This document shows, one piece after another, positions 23,321 to 53,601 of a stretch of DNA of 64,000 nucleotides. The stretch's first letter is position 1. Each line of letters opens with the position of its first letter. Source of the DNA: Gammaproteobacteria bacterium (GTDB lineage Bacteria; Pseudomonadota; Gammaproteobacteria; GCA-001735895). The stretch is taken from assembly GCA_030066085.1 (NCBI GenBank), contig JASJCI010000032.1, positions 62,001-126,000 on the forward strand. The letters are read 5' to 3'. The position numbers and the translations under genes are program-made. The notes below the pieces were generated by a model that was not told where the DNA came from, made no database searches, and worked only from the letters and a program-made list of their open reading frames with translations.

Positions 23321-24292
23321 TTACTTGCAGTCGTAGGTCACGCCGTTGGCCGTGTCGATCTTGCGAATCACGTCCCAGTCGGACTTGTGATCGATCGCGA
23401 TGAACATGCCTTCCTTCTTGAACTCCTTCTGCAGGTCGGAACCTTCCCACTCGAAGGTGAAGAAAGCCTGCTTGATCTTCGCCGCGACTTCGGGATGCAG
23501 GTTGTGCGCATGGCCGTAGCCGGTGGTCGGGAAGGTGGCCGACTTGTAGATCGAGTCGAACTGCGAGGTATCGACCACGCCGCGGTCGATCATGCGGTTC
23601 AGCACCGAGTTGGCCACCGCGGCGACCTCGTAGTCCTTGTTGGCGATGCCGAGCACGGAATTGTCGTGCTTACCGGAAAAGGTGGTCTTGAAATCGCTGT
23701 CCTTGACCAGGCCGAATTCGGACTTGAGCAGCGCCGACGGCGCCTTGTTGCCGGAATTCGAGGTCGGCGAGGTCAGCGCCAGCGTGCGTCCCTTGATGTC
23801 CGACGGCGACTTGATGTCGCTGCCCTTGGGTACGATGATTTCCATCTCGTAACCGAAGCTGCCGTCCTTCGACGCCATCATCGCGAACGGCACCAGGCCG
23901 GCGCAGGACACCGCTACCGGGTTGCCGCCGGTGTTGACGCCGGCGATATGCAGGCGGCCGGAGCGCATGGCCTCGTACTGCGCGGCGTAAGACTGTACCG
24001 GGAAGAATACGACTTTCTTGCCGGTCACCTCGGACATGTGCTGGATGAAACCGTCCCATACCTTGGCGTAGATCGCCGGGTCTTCGACGGGCGTGTAGGA
24101 AAAGATGATCGTGTCGGGATTGACCCACTCGGAGGGGTCCAGCGGCAGGTCGGCAACCAGGTCGCGGTTGCGGTCGCAGTACTGATCGTCGAGGGTTCCG
24201 CGGAAACAGTCTTCGGCCCACGCATTGCCGGCGACGCACAGGGCGAGCAACAGGCCGAAACGCATGAACTGGGTCTTGATGGCTTTAGTCAT
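23321..24292 (-). CDS. phnD: Phosphonate/phosphate-ester periplasmic binding protein
   Basis: 323 residues from ATG 24292, preceded by CCGGAGGATTATA. Signal peptide to about residue 25 ([10 protein letters not shown]). The PhnD-like fold is shown by [56 protein letters not shown] and [20 protein letters not shown]. Between the signal peptide and the first strand is an unusual stretch of about 30 residues with two Cys ([20 protein letters not shown]), perhaps a disulfide-closed loop. No C-P lyase or phosphonatase is in the window, so the ligand class cannot be fixed. Confidence 0.92.
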
Positions 24293-24443
24293 TATAATCC
24301 TCCGGGTGTTGTTATATCGGCCGCCGGCCTTCCTCAACGCGTTGATCGCGGTGGTCGGCGTCGACGCATTATCTGCCCAGTTACTACCCGATGCAACCGA
24401 ACCCGACATCAAACAGCGACCGCCTCCGCAACGGAAAACCGAC

Positions 24444-25286
24444 ATGATCGAGATCGATGGACTGGCTGCGCTGGCCGACACCTACGATGCCCTGCTGGTC
24501 GACGTCTGGGGCGTGTTACACGAGGGCGAGGGAGTATACCCGGCTGCGCGACAATGCCTGGCGCGGCTTGCCGCCGCGGGCAAGCCGGTGATACTGGTAT
24601 CGAATGCCGCGCGCAGGCTGGACGCGTTGCGCGCGGAACTGGACGCGAGCGGCGTGACGCGCAACCTGTACCACGACCTGGTGGCCTCGGGCGAACTGAC
24701 CTGGCGCGCGCTGGCGGCGGGTGAAATCGAATTCGCACGCGGCGCGGACGGTTATTTCTTCGGCCCGCCGCGCAGCCGCGGACTGTGCGAGGGCCTGTCG
24801 CTCGAATGGTGCGAGGAACCGGAGCAGGCGACGTTCGTGTTGACCACCGGTTCACCGCGGGGCAATCCCGCGTCGGCGGCTGCCTGGGATTCCTGGCTCG
24901 AGCGCATGGCCACGCGCGGACTGCCGATGATTTGCGCCAACCCCGACCAGGTGGCGATGCGCAGCGGTGAGCTCGGAATTTCAGCCGGTGCGATTGCGCG
25001 CCGCTATCGCGATCTCGTCGACGCCCCGGTGCGCTTTTTCGGTAAACCCGATCCGGCGGTGTTCGAATACGCGGGCTCGCGCGTGCCGAACGGGCAAGGA
25101 GGACGCTTGCTGGTAGTCGGCGATGGCCTGATAACCGATATTGCCGGTGCCAATGCCGCCGGACTGGATTGCCTGTTCATCACCGGCGGCATCCATGCCG
25201 ATGAATGCGCCGATGCGGGGGTTGCGGCGGTTGCCGCGCGCTACGGTGCCCGCCCGAACTGGTTTTGCCGGGAGCTGCGCTGGTGA
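24444..25286 (+). CDS. HAD-superfamily hydrolase, subclass IIA (TIGR01459-like)
   Basis: 280 residues from ATG 24444. Motif I is ALLVDVWGVLHEG, motif II lies in KPVILVSNAARR, motif III in RFFGKPDPAVFEYA, and motif IV in VVGDGLITDIAGANAAGLD. This is the NagD-like IIA arrangement with a C2 cap. Probably a cytoplasmic phosphatase. It is divergent from phnD and coupled by a GTGA overlap to the following histidine phosphatase, so a function on an imported phosphorylated compound is a reasonable inference. A longer frame starting at 24225 antisense to the phnD signal peptide is rejected. Confidence 0.88.
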   Translation: MIEIDGLAALADTYDALLVDVWGVLHEGEGVYPAARQCLARLAAAGKPVILVSNAARRLDALRAELDASGVTRNLYHDLVASGELTWRALAAGEIEFARGADGYFFGPPRSRGLCEGLSLEWCEEPEQATFVLTTGSPRGNPASAAAWDSWLERMATRGLPMICANPDQVAMRSGELGISAGAIARRYRDLVDAPVRFFGKPDPAVFEYAGSRVPNGQGGRLLVVGDGLITDIAGANAAGLDCLFITGGIHADECADAGVAAVAARYGARPNWFCRELRW

Positions 25287-29681: not shown

Positions 29682-32330
29682 GTGAGCTTCGATTACAAAG
29701 AGATAAGGGCGCGCCAGCAGGCCAGCGGAACCCAGTGGGCTTCGTACAGCGACCTGTTCATGGTGCTGGCGTTCATTTTCCTGCTGATGTACATGGTATC
29801 GAGCCTGCGTACCGGCATGATCTCGGTGACGTCGCACGCCAGGATCCAGGAAGCCAGGCAGGAACTGGAAATCTACGAAACCATCAAGGACCAGTACCTG
29901 ACCCAGCAGAGCTCCGCGCAGGAAAAACGGATGTACGAGGAAATCATCGAGCAGATAGCGCTGCTCGAAGACGAGGCCTCGGCCAGGAAGCGCCGGCTGC
30001 AGCAGCAGGTCGAAGCCCAGGGGGAGCGCGAATCATCGCTGAACCGTTACCAGCAGATGATCGTTGCGATGATGAACGCCAATACCGCGGCCCGTGCCGA
30101 GGCCGCAGAAACGCTCCAGCAGCAGCAGCGCGAAAACCTCGAACTGGAGCAGGAGATTGCCGAGCGCGGCGCGGCCGTCGAGACCTTGCAGTCGCGCCTG
30201 CAACAGGAAGAAAACGAACTCGAGCAGATGCGCGAGCGTCACGCCGAGGAAGTGCGCCAGCAGGCGCAGCAAATCACCGCCCTGGAAGCCGTCTACACGC
30301 AAAGCAGCCAGGTCGTGGCGCAACTCGAGCGCGACATGGAAGCCGCCCAGCGTGAACGCGAGGCGCTGCGACGGGGACATGCGCAGGAAAAGCTGGCGCT
30401 GGCGGATCGCTACCAGGAATTACGTTCGCAGCACGAAGCCGGGCAGAGCCGGGTTGCCAGCCTCGAGGAAACCCTGCAGTCAGAGGCCGAACAGCGCGAG
30501 GCGCTGGAACAGCAGCATGCGCGGGAAACGCGTGCAATCGAGCAGCGCTACCAGTCGCTGTCGGACGCCTACGATCGCAGTCTCGGTGACATGGCCTCAC
30601 TCGAGGGCCAGATCGAGCAGGAGAGCCGCGAGCGTGAACAACTCGAGCAGACGCATGCCGATCAGACCCGCGAGCTGCAGCAGCAGCTGCAGCAGCTGGC
30701 CGGCGAATACGGCAAGAACCAGACAAAACTCGCGAGCCTGGAGCAGCAACTGGAGCAGCGCGCCAGCGAAAAACAGGCGCTGGAAGCCACCCTGATCGCG
30801 CAGACGGAATACCTCGAGGGACAGATCTCCGACCTGTCGTCGCAGTACCGGCAGAGCCAGGATCAACTGGGCGAGCTCGAATCCACGCTGGCGCGCGAAG
30901 CAGCGGAAAAACAGGCCCTGCAGGCGACCCTGGTTCGACAAAGCGCAAATCTCGAGGGCAAGATTACCGAGCTGACGCAGCGCCAGGGACAAAGCCAGGC
31001 GGAACTGCGGGAGCTTGCCGGGCAACTCAGTCGCGAAACGGCCGAAAAGGAAGCGCTGCAAAGCGCCAACGCGGCCCAGCTCGCCGAACTCGAGCAACGC
31101 TACCGGACACTGCAGGGTGACTACGACCGCAAGCTCGGCGAGCTCGAATCGCTGGAGGACAGGAGTCGTGCCGAGCTGGCCACACTCGGCGAACAACTGG
31201 GCAAGCAGGCTGCCGAGAAGGAAGCCCTGCGTAATGCCAGCAGCGCCGAACTCGAAGCGCTGGAAAACAAGTATCGCGGGCTGCAGCAGGAATACGATGC
31301 CAAGCTCGGCGAACTCGAGGATCTGGCGGCGCAGCGCCAGGGCCAGCTGGAGGGGCTTGCGGGCGAGCTGGCGCGTGAAGCGGCGGAAAAAGCGGCGCTG
31401 CAGGACGCCAGCGCGGCCAGGCTCGGTGAGCTGGAGGGCAAGTACCAGGACCTCGAGAGCGACTACCAGCAAAAACTGGATGAGCTGGCAGATCTCGCCG
31501 GTGATATCGACCGCAGCCGCGAGCAGATGGCCGGGCTCGAGGAGAACTACCAGGGGCAACTCAGTGATCTCGAGGATCGCTACCAAGGCCTGAAACAGGA
31601 GTATGCCGGCAACCAGGACCGGATCGCCCAGCTCGAGCAGGACCTCGCCGGCGCCCGGCAAAACCTCGAGGATACCGCCGAGGAACTGGGTCGGACCGAG
31701 GCTGACCTGGCCGCCACTTCGGGTGAACTGCAAAAGGCGCTGGAACTCGCCAGGAACCGCCAGGAGGTCGCCGAACGGCTCGCCCAGGGGTTCGCCGAGG
31801 CCGGCATCGATGCCGAGGTGGATCCGGGTACCGGCGACGTGGTCATCGATTTTGGCAAGGAATACTTCGATACCGACAGCGCGCGGCTCAAGCCGGGCAT
31901 GAAACGCACTATTCGCGAAGCGATGCCGGTATACGCCGAAAGCCTGTTCGGTAACTCGACCATGACCGCCGACATCTCGGCGGTCGAGATCATCGGCTTC
32001 GCTTCGCCGACTTTCGGCGGCAAGCCCGTCAACCCGCGCTCGTTATCGGACACCAACCGCCGCGCGGTCAATTACAACCTGGATCTCAGCTACGAGCGCG
32101 CGCGATCGATCTTCAAGTACGCCTTCAACCCGCGCACGGTCGAGTTTCGCCACCAGGAAACCATGCTGCCGTTGATCAAGGTCACCGGTCGCAGTTTTTT
32201 CACCGAGGAAGTCAATCCGGAGGACACCGGCAACCTGTCACGCGAGGATTTCTGCCGGCTCTACGATTGCTTCGGATCGCAACGGGTCATCATCAAGTTC
32301 GACCTGGAGCAAGAGGAGGTTAGCTCGTGA
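29682..32330 (+). CDS. MotB/OmpA-like giant coiled-coil membrane protein
   Basis: 882 residues. Cytoplasmic N-terminus, then one membrane segment (about 22-42, SYSDLFMVLAFIFLLMYMVS) with Asp24 at its start, the position of the ion-binding Asp in MotB-type stators. A continuous, Gln/Glu-rich, Cys-free coiled coil follows (about 52-705), including ten tandem 46-residue units (176-657). The C-terminal domain (about 708-875) resembles OmpA/MotB peptidoglycan-binding domains: DVVIDFGKEYFDTDSARLKP, VEIIGFASPTFGGKP, LSDTNRRAVNYNLDLSYERA. Probably energised by the MotA-like protein encoded 4 bp overlapping downstream. Start is GTG 29682. Function not known; the arrangement suggests a force-transmitting envelope machine. 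Confidence 0.85.
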   Translation: MSFDYKEIRARQQASGTQWASYSDLFMVLAFIFLLMYMVSSLRTGMISVTSHARIQEARQELEIYETIKDQYLTQQSSAQEKRMYEEIIEQIALLEDEASARKRRLQQQVEAQGERESSLNRYQQMIVAMMNANTAARAEAAETLQQQQRENLELEQEIAERGAAVETLQSRLQQEENELEQMRERHAEEVRQQAQQITALEAVYTQSSQVVAQLERDMEAAQREREALRRGHAQEKLALADRYQELRSQHEAGQSRVASLEETLQSEAEQREALEQQHARETRAIEQRYQSLSDAYDRSLGDMASLEGQIEQESREREQLEQTHADQTRELQQQLQQLAGEYGKNQTKLASLEQQLEQRASEKQALEATLIAQTEYLEGQISDLSSQYRQSQDQLGELESTLAREAAEKQALQATLVRQSANLEGKITELTQRQGQSQAELRELAGQLSRETAEKEALQSANAAQLAELEQRYRTLQGDYDRKLGELESLEDRSRAELATLGEQLGKQAAEKEALRNASSAELEALENKYRGLQQEYDAKLGELEDLAAQRQGQLEGLAGELAREAAEKAALQDASAARLGELEGKYQDLESDYQQKLDELADLAGDIDRSREQMAGLEENYQGQLSDLEDRYQGLKQEYAGNQDRIAQLEQDLAGARQNLEDTAEELGRTEADLAATSGELQKALELARNRQEVAERLAQGFAEAGIDAEVDPGTGDVVIDFGKEYFDTDSARLKPGMKRTIREAMPVYAESLFGNSTMTADISAVEIIGFASPTFGGKPVNPRSLSDTNRRAVNYNLDLSYERARSIFKYAFNPRTVEFRHQETMLPLIKVTGRSFFTEEVNPEDTGNLSREDFCRLYDCFGSQRVIIKFDLEQEEVSS
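30207..31652 (+). repeat. Ten tandem 138-bp (46-residue) coding repeats, two extended to 171 bp
   Basis: Unit starts by protein residue: 176, 222, 268, 314, 360, 406, 452, 509, 566, 612. Eight units are 46 residues; the seventh and eighth are 57, exactly one 11-residue hendecad longer. Each shows an E-x-AL (or similar) near position 5-8, often H-A-x-E four residues later, an E-x-R/K-Y pair near 21-23 and a LASLE-like block near 40. The DNA is diverged, so this is protein-level repetition. Confidence 0.8.
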
Positions 32331-33226
32331 ATGCCGCTATCGTGGACCTGATCAACGTCGTCGTCGTGTATGCGACCGACTACCTGATGCCGCTGCTGTT
32401 GTGCGGTTTCATACTCGCCGTCATCCTGCGCCTGCTGATTACCGTTACGATTCATCGGCAAAAGCGATTCGTCAAGGAGTTCACCAAGCGGGTGCACCAG
32501 GAGATCCTGTCCAGTCCCGAGCCCAGGGGCTCCTTCTACCTGCATATCAAGCGCATGCTGACCCGGACCTACTTCGAGACCTTCGAATTGCGTGCCCGTC
32601 ACAAGCGGCGCAACGATGATCGCATCATGACCGTCGGCGATCGAATGTTCCTGATCCAGGATGGTGTCATCCGCCTGATCGACGATTTCCTGCAACAGGT
32701 GCGTTACCTCGATCGCAACGGCGGTCGCCAGCCGGATTTCCAGGGTATTTCCAACAGCGTGTTCGGCTCCAACCCGGTCTTCAACCGCGTGCTCGGTATT
32801 TTCTCGCTGAGCCGCACCAATGACGTACTCAATATCCTGCCGAGCATCTTCATCGTGGCCGGTATCTTCGGCACTTTTCTCGGCATCATGCGGGCGCTGC
32901 CGGAACTGACCGCGATGGACATCACCGATGCCGAGGCCAGCAAGCTCGTAATCGACAGTTTCCTGATCAAGATTTCATTCGCGCTGTCGACCTCGATTCT
33001 CGGCATCGTGCTGTCGATCCTGATGAGTTTCATGAACACGCTGCTTTCGCCCACCAGTACCTACGTCGAGATCGTGGATACGCTCAATTCGGCCGCGGAA
33101 ATCCTGTGGAACAAGTCGGAATCCAACGATGTCGCTGGCGCAAGCGACCGGCAGAACGAGCACGAAGCCGAGGCCGAGCAGGTATTCGATCTCGCCATTG
33201 CCAATCTCTATGCCAGGCGGGCGTGA
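32327..33226 (+). CDS. MotA/TolQ/ExbB-like proton-channel protein
   Basis: 299 residues. TM1 about 17-40; a cytoplasmic domain about 41-165; TM2 about 168-190 (NILPSIFIVAGIFGTFLGIM, the GxFGTxxGI signature of the family); TM3 about 208-240; a short acidic tail. The start overlaps the coiled-coil gene stop in GTGA. The pair corresponds to an ion-driven MotAB/TolQR-type 5:2 motor, but with gene order B-A and a very long B subunit. No flagellar, Tol, Ton or Zorya genes adjoin. Confidence 0.88.
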   Translation: MNAAIVDLINVVVVYATDYLMPLLLCGFILAVILRLLITVTIHRQKRFVKEFTKRVHQEILSSPEPRGSFYLHIKRMLTRTYFETFELRARHKRRNDDRIMTVGDRMFLIQDGVIRLIDDFLQQVRYLDRNGGRQPDFQGISNSVFGSNPVFNRVLGIFSLSRTNDVLNILPSIFIVAGIFGTFLGIMRALPELTAMDITDAEASKLVIDSFLIKISFALSTSILGIVLSILMSFMNTLLSPTSTYVEIVDTLNSAAEILWNKSESNDVAGASDRQNEHEAEAEQVFDLAIANLYARRA

Positions 33227-49865: not shown

Positions 49866-51029
49866 ATGATTCATTATCCCTCGCTCAATTTCGATCTCGG
49901 TGAGACCACCGACTTGCTGCGTGACGCGGTTCAGGCCTTCGCGCAGGAAGAAATTGCGCCGCTGGCGGCCGAAATCGATCGCAGCAACGAGTTTCCGAAC
50001 GAACTGTGGCCGAAACTCGGCGACATGGGCCTGCTCGGCATCACCGTGCCCGAAACCTACGGCGGCAGTGACCTGGGATACCTCGCGCACATCGTCGCGA
50101 TGGAGGAAATCAGCCGCGCTTCGGCCTCGGTGGGTCTCAGTTACGGTGCGCATTCCAACCTGTGCGTGAACCAGATCAACCGCAACGGTAGCGACGCGCA
50201 GAAGCACAAGTACCTGCCGAAACTGGTCAGCGGCGAACACATCGGCGCACTGGCGATGTCGGAGCCGGGCGCCGGTTCGGACGTGGTCAGCATGCAGATG
50301 AAGGCCGAGAAGACGGCCTCCGGTTACCTGCTGAACGGCACCAAGATGTGGATTACCAACGGCCCCGACGCGGACCTGATCGTGGTCTACGCCAAGACCG
50401 ATCCGACCGCGGGCTCGAAGGGCATTAGCGCGTTCCTGGTCGAGCGCGAGTTCGGCTTTACCACCGCGCAGAAACTCGACAAGCTCGGCATGCGCGGCTC
50501 GAACACCGGTGAACTGGTGTTTGCCAACGTCGAGGTCCCCGAGGAAAACGTGCTCGGCGAGATCGGCCGCGGTGCCGCGGTGCTGATGAGCGGGCTCGAC
50601 TTCGAACGCGCGGTGCTGGCGGCCGGTCCCACCGGCATCATGCTGGCCTGCATGGACGCGGTCGTACCCTACATCCACGAGCGCAAACAGTTCGGCCAGG
50701 CGATCGGCGAATTCGAGCTGATGCAGGGCAAGATCGCCGACATGTACACCACGATGAATGCCACCCGCGCCTACGTCTACGCGGTGGGCAAGGCCTGCGA
50801 CCGTGGCGAGACCACGCGCAAGGATGCTGCCGGTGCGATCCTGTACGCCGCGGAAAAGGCGACCTGGATGGCGCTCGAGGCGATCCAGGCGCTCGGCGGT
50901 AACGGTTACACCAACGATTACCCGGTCGGGCGCCTGCTGCGCGACGCCAAGCTGTACGAAATCGGCGCCGGCACGTCGGAAATCCGGCGCATGCTGATCG
51001 GGCGCGAACTGTTCAACGAAACGGCATGA
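49866..51029 (+). CDS. liuA: Isovaleryl-CoA dehydrogenase
   Basis: 387-residue FAD enzyme oxidising isovaleryl-CoA to 3-methylcrotonyl-CoA. Acyl-CoA dehydrogenase motifs: [58 protein letters not shown] and [20 protein letters not shown]. The end is [20 protein letters not shown], where YEIGAGTS replaces the usual YEGTS catalytic-Glu motif, as in isovaleryl-CoA dehydrogenases, whose base is instead the Glu of LDFER (helix G, present here as [10 protein letters not shown]). This makes the substrate call firm. Confidence 0.95.
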
Positions 51030-51060
51030 ACTCACACGTCAATGCGAGCGAAACTACCCA

Positions 51061-51212
51061 CCGTCATCCCCGCGAAAGCGGGGATCTTGTAACGATGGCA
51101 CCGTCTGGAGATCCCCGCTTACGCGGGGATGACGATGTGGCTTTAGCGCGGACGTATGGTCCGCACAAGATCCCGATACGTCGGACCGCCGCTTGCGCGG
51201 GGATGACGATGT
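51061..51212. repeat. CCCCGC inverted repeats inside the liu operon
   Basis: A complete element has arms 51062-51088 (GTCATCCCCGCGAAAGCGGG ...) and 51110-51133 (GATCCCCGCTTACGCGGGGA ...). An incomplete second element follows (51171-51212, right arm GCCGCTTGCGCGGGGATGAC). They fill the gap between liuA and the thiolase gene. Confidence 0.85.
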
Positions 51213-51272
51213 GGGTTTAGTGAGGGCGTGCGGGCGTCGCGATGACGAGGGAACATTAAGAGGACAAACATC

Positions 51273-52454
51273 ATGAACGAAAACATAGTCATTACTGCCA
51301 TTGCGCGCACGCCGATGGGCGGATTCCAGGGCGTGCTCGCGGATGCGCGCGCGGCCGAGCTCGGCGCCGCCGCGATCAGGGCCGCGGTCGAACGCAGCGG
51401 GCTCCAGGGCGAGGATATCGACGAGGTCATCATGGGCAACGTGCTGCCGGCCGGGCAGGGCCAGGCGCCGGCGCGCCAGGCGAGCCTCGGCGCCGGTCTG
51501 CCGCTCGGCACCGGCTGCACCACGATCAACAAGATGTGCGGCTCGGGCATGAAGGCCACCATGTTCGCGCACGACCTGCTGAAGGCGGGGACTAACCAGG
51601 TCATGGTTGCCGGCGGACTCGAAAGCATGACCAATGCACCGTACCTGTTGACGAAGGCGCGCGGAGGCCTGCGCATGGGTCACGGCCAGGTGCACGATCA
51701 CATGTTCCTCGACGGACTCGAGGACGCCTACGACAAGGGCAAGCTGATGGGTGTATTCGCCGAGGCGACCGCCGACCAGTACGGTTTCACCCGCGAGCAA
51801 CAGGACGAGTTCGCGATCGCGTCGTTGACGCGCGCGAAGGCCGCGATCGAAAGCGGCGCCTTTGCCAGCGAAATCACGCCGGTCACGATCAAGACGCGCA
51901 AGGGTGAAGTCACGGTCGATACCGACGAACAGCCGTTCAACGCCAATATCGAAAAAATCCCGTCGCTGCGGCCGGCGTTTCGCCAGGATGGCACGGTCAC
52001 TGCAGCCAACTCGAGCTCGATCTCGGACGGCGGCGCGGCGCTGGTGCTGATGGGCGAGGGTGAAGCAGCCCGGCGCGGTGTGACGCCGCTGGCGGTGATT
52101 CGCGCACATTCAACCCACGCACAGGAACCGGCCTGGTTCACCACCGCGCCGGTCGGTGCACTGCAGAAGGTGCTCGAGGCGGCCAACTGGTCCGGTGACG
52201 AGGTCGACCTGTACGAAATCAACGAGGCCTTTGCCGTGGTGACGATGGCGGCGATGCAGGACCTCGACCTCGATCACGCGAAGGTCAACGTCAATGGCGG
52301 CGCCTGCGCGCTCGGCCACCCGATCGGTGCTTCCGGCGCGCGGATCATCGTGACATTGATTGCCGCGCTGCAAAACCGCGGCCTGAAGAAAGGCGTCGCC
52401 GGGCTGTGCATCGGCGGCGGCGAAGCCACCGCGATCGCGGTCGAGTTGCTGTAG
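51273..52454 (+). CDS. Acetyl-CoA C-acyltransferase (thiolase)
   Basis: 393 residues. Catalytic Cys near 90 in [19 protein letters not shown], His in [14 protein letters not shown], second Cys in [18 protein letters not shown]. Thiolase family I, catalysing cleavage of 3-oxoacyl-CoA or acetoacetyl-CoA condensation. Inside the leucine operon it is most useful for cleaving acetoacetyl-CoA made from the HMG-CoA lyase product. Clearly distinct from the PhaA-like thiolase at 60111. An AAGAGGAC ribosome-binding site precedes the ATG. Confidence 0.92.
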
Positions 52455-52461
52455 GCCAGGC

Positions 52462-53601
52462 ATGCAGCTGAGCGACGAACAGCGCCTGATCCGCGACAGC
52501 GTGCGCGATTACGTGCAGGAACGGGTCGCGCCGTTTGCCGCCGACTGGGACCGCGACGGCACTTTTCCCGCCGAGCAATTGCGCGAAATGGCCGAGCTCG
52601 GCCTCTACGGCATGTTCATCCCCGAGGAATGGGGCGGTGCCGGCGCCGACTACCTGTCATTCGCGCTCGCGATCGAGGAAGTCGCCGCCGGTGACGGCGC
52701 CTGTTCGACCATCCTGTCGGTCAACAACTCGGTGGTCTGCAGCGTGCTGCTGCAGTCGGGCAGCGATTTCCTGAAACAGAAGTACCTGCGGCCGCTGGCG
52801 TCAGGTGACATGCTCGGTTGTTTCTGCCTGACCGAACCGCACGCGGGTTCCAACGCGGCCGCGCTCAGGACCCGCGCGCAAAAAACCGATGGGGGCTACG
52901 TCCTGAACGGCAGCAAGGCGTTCATCACCTCGGGAGCCAACGCCGACGTCGCGATCGTGTTCGCGGTGACCGACCCGCAGGCCGGCAAGCGCGGCATCAG
53001 CGCTTTCGTCGTACCGACCGACAATCCGGGTTACGAGGTCGGTGGCGTCGAGCGCAAGATGGGACAGCACGCCTCCGATACCGCGTCGATCTTCCTGAAC
53101 AATTGCCACATTCCGGCGGACCACCTGATCGGCGACGAAGGTGGCGGCTACAAGATCGCGCTGATGAATCTCGAGGGCGGACGCATCGGTATCGGCGCGC
53201 AGTGCGTCGGCATGGCGCGCGCAGCTTATGACTGCGCCCTTGCCTATGCAAAAGAACGCGAAAGCTTCGACAAACCGCTGGTCGAACACCAGGCGGTGGC
53301 GTTTCGCCTCGTCGACATGGCCACGCAGCTCGAGGCATCGCGCCAGCTGGTGCACAACGCCGCGCGCCTGCGCGATGCCGGTGAGCCCTGCCTCAAGCAG
53401 GCCAGCATGGCCAAGCTGTTCGCGTCGGAAGCCGCGGAAAAAATCTGCTCGGACGCGATCCAGGTACTCGGCGGCTACGGTTACCTCGGCGATTTCCCGG
53501 TCGAACGCATCGCGCGCGACGTACGCGTGGCGCAAATCTACGAGGGTACCAGCGACATCCAGCGTATCGTCATCGCGCGCGAGCTGGTGGCGGGCAAATG
53601 A
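52462..53601 (+). CDS. Acyl-CoA dehydrogenase, short/branched-chain type
   Basis: 379 residues. [58 protein letters not shown] and [20 protein letters not shown] are standard. The C-terminal catalytic Glu motif is normal ([18 protein letters not shown]), unlike LiuA. Likely a short-chain or isobutyryl/2-methylbutyryl-CoA dehydrogenase acting beside IcmF products. Its stop overlaps the liuB start in ATGA. Confidence 0.93.

Follow-up and report, generated by a model that had tools for sequence, protein, structure and literature searches.

Ion-driven motors are known to push a flagellar rotor, the outer membrane through TonB or TolA, a gliding machine or, in Zorya, a long cytoplasmic tail. In Zorya, an Asp of ZorB-I (residue 24) is required for defence and packs against a ring of Ser and Thr residues from ZorA, and both Zorya I and Zorya II need the cytoplasmic tail of ZorA (PMC11890865). 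The wider family of MotAB relatives was surveyed in 2025; the survey reports that non-flagellar relatives include proteins with 'extraordinarily large periplasmic domains', that B lies directly downstream of A as a rule, and that ZorAB was left out of the tree (PMC12505986). It also describes generic ion transporters (GIT), in whose B subunits no OmpA homology was discerned, and assigns extra beta structure in the cytoplasmic domain to Zorya-type A subunits (PMC12505986).

We analysed a gene pair in a 64,000-nucleotide stretch of gammaproteobacterial DNA (hereafter the window). The pair consists of B followed by A and, as the original prediction had it, the two reading frames overlap by 4 bp (GTGA, 32327-32330; ORF calls, coordinates exact). 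That prediction also gave B a length of 880 residues; the long B subunit stands and the figure becomes 882. Most gammaproteobacterial homologues share the GTG start of B and begin VSFDY in the homologue alignment. From its short N-terminus B runs through Asp24, a membrane helix and a coil to an OmpA-like end domain (Table 1).

Table 1. Features of the B-A pair in the window, with one example of the Bdellovibrionota gene C
Feature	Coordinates	Strand	Remarks
Gene B, ZorB/MotB-like subunit	29682..32330	+	882 aa; GTG start; TGA stop 32328-32330
B Asp24 codon, ion-binding position	29751..29753	+	Conserved in homologues with a complete N-terminus; numbered as ZorB-I D24 (PMC11890865)
B membrane helix, residues ~25-43	29754..29810	+	Hydropathy and alignment; N-in by analogy
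B coiled coil, residues 45-690, 46/57-residue repeats	29814..31751	+	Predicted periplasmic
B C-terminal OmpA-like domain, residues 691-882	31752..32327	+	Nearest to ZorB
B Cys858 and Cys863 (CX4C)	32253..32270	+	Invariant in 35-sequence alignment
Gene A, ZorA/TolQ/ExbB-like subunit	32327..33226	+	299 aa; GTG start; no long cytoplasmic tail
A Thr183 codon	32873..32875	+	Invariant GIFGTFLGIM motif; aligns with ZorA T147
A Ser223 codon	32993..32995	+	Invariant; aligns with ZorA S184
Gene C, example	L052:8959-12837		From the set of loci L047-L108; downstream of A

The pair had been described as MotAB-like. An ion-motor-type A/B pair it is, and the placing of A in the MotA/TolQ/ExbB family is borne out by Pfam (MotA_ExbB, PF01618, 24.7 bits against a cut-off of 22.9), but profile, PDB and fold searches all give ZorAB and not MotAB as the nearest family. 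With the PADLOC models, B matched ZorB1 (5.7e-28) and A matched ZorA2 (3.6e-8); across the homologues, A matched ZorA1 models in 28/28 cases and the B end domains matched ZorB1 in 35/35 (best 8.7e-36). Profile searches of the PDB placed ZorA (8qyh, 6e-7) at the top for A and ZorB (8vvi, 7e-10) at the top for B. Foldseek likewise returned ZorB first for the B domain (6e-7), ahead of OmpA, MotB and Pal, and ZorA first for A, weakly (2e-3), ahead of TolQ and ExbB. The NCBIfam ZorA and ZorB scores of A and B lie far below the curated cut-offs. Judged by sequence profiles and predicted folds, the nearest known family of A and B is Zorya ZorAB, not flagellar MotAB. With MotAB and PomAB the pair shares the motor class, a one-helix B with a membrane Asp and an OmpA-type end domain, but A has three membrane helices and no match to MotA or PomA models, and B carries a 646-residue coil where MotAB and PomAB have their plug and linker. 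A flagellar stator was rejected as an identity on the missing MotA match, PomA-like stators being encoded elsewhere in the host genome. TolQR, ExbBD and AglRQS share the three-helix A and the A/B gene pair; the end domain of the present B, however, is OmpA-like and not of TolR/ExbD type, and no TonB, TolA or Glt partner adjoins the pair. A Tol, Ton or gliding system was thus ruled out by end-domain type and neighbouring genes.

The residues of the putative ion path are strongly conserved. Asp24 stands where the single membrane helix of B begins, as had been claimed from the sequence, and is kept in every homologue with a complete N-terminus; Thr183 and Ser223 of A are invariant across 28 homologues. 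This supports a predicted ion-conducting A/B core. A ends about 60 residues past its last membrane helix, without a long cytoplasmic tail, and its AF2 model (pLDDT 82) has no strand of at least 3 residues.

B residues 45-690 are a genuine coiled coil and not a chance pattern. They contain no Pro, Trp or Cys, and their hydrophobic period of 3.54-3.545 residues has a spectral power of 69, whereas none of 300 shuffles exceeded 12.9. Internal repeats are 46 or 57 residues long, corresponding to five heptads plus one or two hendecads, so that each added unit keeps the phase. If straight, the coil would measure about 96 nm (0.1485 nm per residue over 646 residues). A periplasm is typically about 20-30 nm deep, so a coil of this length must follow the envelope, lie at a slant or double back on itself. 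The earlier expectation of some 650 coiled residues, exceeding the depth of the periplasm, agrees well with the 646 Pro-free, in-phase residues. We place the coil, by prediction, outside the inner membrane because Asp24 is near the cytoplasmic end of the helix, because of the N-terminal charges and because the end domain carries two Cys residues, which likely form a periplasmic disulfide. Coil length ranges from 439 to 737 residues in gammaproteobacterial relatives, where in-phase 46-residue repeats are seen, and from 245 to 473 residues in Bdellovibrionota. Given the spread among the gammaproteobacterial relatives, the coil does not serve to measure out one set distance; a coil that varies by in-phase repeats would suit an arm or tether better.

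An OmpA-like C-terminal domain on B had also been foreseen, and the AF2 model (pLDDT 89) upholds it, with ZorB as its best PDB match and then MotB, OmpA and Pal. The OmpA fold is present with the Arg of the LSxxRA motif. Among the peptidoglycan-binding residues of ZorB and Pal, this family retains the Ser and the Arg of LSxxRA but has Phe in the place of the His (GHTS in ZorB, GFAS here), so that the predicted attachment to the wall may be less strong or of another kind.

We favor the possibility, with middling confidence, that A and B make up an ion-driven inner-membrane motor of the 5:2 class, belonging to the ZorAB branch, that carries a long periplasmic arm and acts in the envelope. Five A subunits would surround two B subunits in the inner membrane, and ions would pass between Asp24 of B and a ring of Thr183 and Ser223 from A. 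The two coils of B would pair into a long periplasmic arm, at the tip of which two OmpA-type domains may grip the cell wall, or a target borne on it, as far as about 100 nm away from the motor. The motor would do its work within the envelope, where it would rotate or tug at the arm or the anchor of the arm, and would not act on a cytoplasmic nuclease as in Zorya. Our reasoning is that an output in the envelope is probable when A has no cytoplasmic tail and B bears a long arm; more broadly, an envelope function is suggested by topology together with the absence of Zorya effectors. Such a machine would be a ZorAB core turned inside out, in that B bears the rod, beyond the inner membrane, and A has lost its tail. 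It would offer a natural comparison for learning on which side 5:2 motors perform their work.

The same coil bears on another reading, in which B is mainly a periplasmic strut to the wall, a passive or regulated tether in which ion flow gates or tunes and does not drive rotation. Wide variation in coil length, in the gammaproteobacterial group by gain and loss of repeat units, is expected of a spacer and not of a fixed drive shaft. However, a strut would not need the conservation of Asp24, Thr183 and Ser223 and would hardly require A, and we consider this reading unlikely.

The relationship to Zorya itself deserves a closer comparison. The pair shares with the ZorAB of types I and II the homology of both subunits by profile and fold, the Asp24 with its Thr/Ser ring and the OmpA-type end of B. 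It differs in that: (i) the gene order is B-A here and A-B there; (ii) A lacks the cytoplasmic tail of ZorA, and its model is without the extra beta structure reported for Zorya-type A in the available part of the survey (PMC12505986); (iii) the long coil is on B, outside the inner membrane by prediction; and (iv) no ZorC, ZorD or ZorE effector adjoins. On the strength of the reversed order, the tail-less A, the missing effector genes nearby and the long rod on B, we conclude that the B-A pair is not a Zorya system.

The surrounding genes encode a His phosphatase, a Na/Pi cotransporter, an enoyl-CoA hydratase, a short-chain dehydrogenase, a CoA transferase and Liv-type ABC components. The ten nearest neighbours are metabolic or transport genes; in line with the original prediction, there is no Tol, Ton, flagellar, gliding or Zorya gene among them, and a PADLOC scan of these ten found no ZorC, ZorD or ZorE. 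A neighbouring ABC ATPase matched generic ATPase models in the defence scan, and no neighbour gave a meaningful match to a defence family. Genes for a HAD-type hydrolase and a phosphonate-binding protein also lie near the pair (window 24225-25286 and 23321-24481). The setting is related in several congeners, with the His phosphatase upstream in six relatives and a LivF-type gene nearby in some. Across the gammaproteobacterial loci we found no third gene constantly beside the pair and no conserved gene for an outer-membrane partner. A mobile defence gene was set aside as an identity, no plasmid or phage homologue of the pair having been found and its chromosomal place being stable in several congeners.

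These data also speak to the idea that the pair is a reduced or divergent phage defence of Zorya type, in which A and B would detect damage to the wall when a phage infects and would work together with an effector encoded elsewhere. The kinship with ZorAB, the conserved ion residues and the ZorB-type end domain are what such a system would show. Against this, A is without the ZorA tail that Zorya I and II need (PMC11890865), the gene order is reversed, no defence genes adjoin, and the pair keeps a stable chromosomal place in several congeners and is absent from plasmids and phages. We therefore give a defence role little credence.

A further alternative is that the pair powers some process at the outer membrane or cell surface, in the manner of ExbBD, TolQR or AglRQS, with ion flux making B move an outer partner and the partners encoded elsewhere. 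The tail-less, three-helix layout of A is that of TolQ and ExbB, and these two were the next-best fold matches. On the other hand, B resembles ZorB and OmpA, not ExbD or TolR, no conserved outer-membrane partner gene accompanies the pair, and TolQ and further TolQ/ExbB-like loci are already present in the host genome; we regard this reading as rather improbable. The host genome encodes two PomA-like flagellar stators as well. It also holds a second, divergent B-A pair of the same layout (577 and 350 aa; L109:6954-9779, corresponding to G000:C17, ~49953-52778), whose A is about 30% identical to the first A and has no Pfam match; this second pair is present in many congeners.

A whole or partial A gene was found in 21 of the 30 congeners searched, mostly at 63-80% identity, and in a 399-genome sample of Pseudomonadota A matched the host genome only. 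The other relatives of A in the searched contigs (34-51% identity) are almost all from Bdellovibrionota. At a cut-off of 1e-20 or better, 147 of 290 Bdellovibrionota genomes have an A homologue, 118 of the main family (E of 1e-70 or better) and 29 divergent. B lies upstream of A in 73/73 loci where the upstream gene is complete enough, the reverse of zorA-zorB.

A neighbourhood survey of homologues for a conserved third partner did find one in Bdellovibrionota. This gene, C, follows A within about 300 bp in 57/61 testable loci (L050, with no room downstream, is left out of the count; the downstream C is missing at L068, L083, L100 and L103). The description of the pair as an orphan accordingly holds for the gammaproteobacterial lineage and fails for Bdellovibrionota. 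At its N-terminus C carries an FHA domain (up to 6e-16). A long coiled coil and a single membrane helix come next, the helix lying about 155-195 residues before the C-terminal end, and the conserved C-terminal domain is one for which we found no relative in the PDB. In the 290 Bdellovibrionota genomes, main-family A occurs in 118, C in 109 and both in 105 (Fisher p 2e-58, uncorrected for ancestry), and C was found in 0/29 genomes that have divergent A only. In one genome C is unlinked, at 1.20 Mb, with the BA pair at 2.11 Mb of the same contig, about 0.9 Mb apart (G143, locus L119); in another it is a few kb from the pair on the opposite strand (G063). That C is retained although unlinked or displaced points to a functional tie that goes further than shared inheritance as one operon. 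A search with the C model found none in the host genome, 26 congeners and two other gammaproteobacterial relatives; seven Bdellovibrionota controls were positive.

C as an FHA-coil-membrane protein, neither nuclease nor helicase, is a further point against a defence role. Its FHA domain would be a phosphothreonine reader and, with a cytoplasmic coil, a membrane helix and an outer C-terminal domain, C may give the envelope motor of Bdellovibrionota a phosphorylation-dependent cytoplasmic control or output; in the gammaproteobacterial lineage the motor would work without it. We tentatively propose, with confidence somewhat below the midpoint, a non-defence third branch of ZorAB-type motors ('BA' and 'BAC') with a periplasmic arm of 36-109 nm, serving envelope mechanics in Bdellovibrionota, where C would be a phospho-signalling link, and occurring with B and A alone in one gammaproteobacterial group.

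The claim that the pair is an uncharacterised machine is in keeping with the searched literature, which holds no description of the B-A family or the B-A-C operon. The family is not described in the available portion of the 2025 MotAB survey text (PMC12505986), where GIT are likewise said to include large periplasmic domains. For a Bdellovibrio operon, the literature yielded nothing beyond the gliding genes AglRQS/Glt and Bd0474, an FHA/TPR protein; these are not the same genes and were rejected as described equivalents. The parts are of known kinds; the combination of reversed order, tail-less A, long-coil ZorB-like B and FHA partner C is undescribed in the searched papers. Bdellovibrionota are known for bacterial predators, and the family is widespread in this phylum, with a strongly co-occurring FHA partner; it is connected to predation by taxonomy only. 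Related operons occur in the genera of cultured predators, which makes the proposal testable.

In the tree of A, the gammaproteobacterial sequences form one clade (99) that is weakly sister (88-90) to two divergent, C-less Bdellovibrionota sequences. With such support and long branches meeting, the tree gives no direction for a transfer between the two groups. At L056, on a contig titled Thioalkalivibrio sp., A does not differ from that of L057 (Bdellovibrionales), which stems from the same sediment project, and the contig is probably misbinned; within the A gene at L107 (7989-8810), a stretch is masked and reads as X. L126, L127 and L128, as well as the 29 Bdellovibrionota genomes, have divergent A/B pairs and no C. 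At L126, L127 and L128, the GFAS of the main-family B is matched by GHAS, which comes nearer to the peptidoglycan-binding motif of ZorB.
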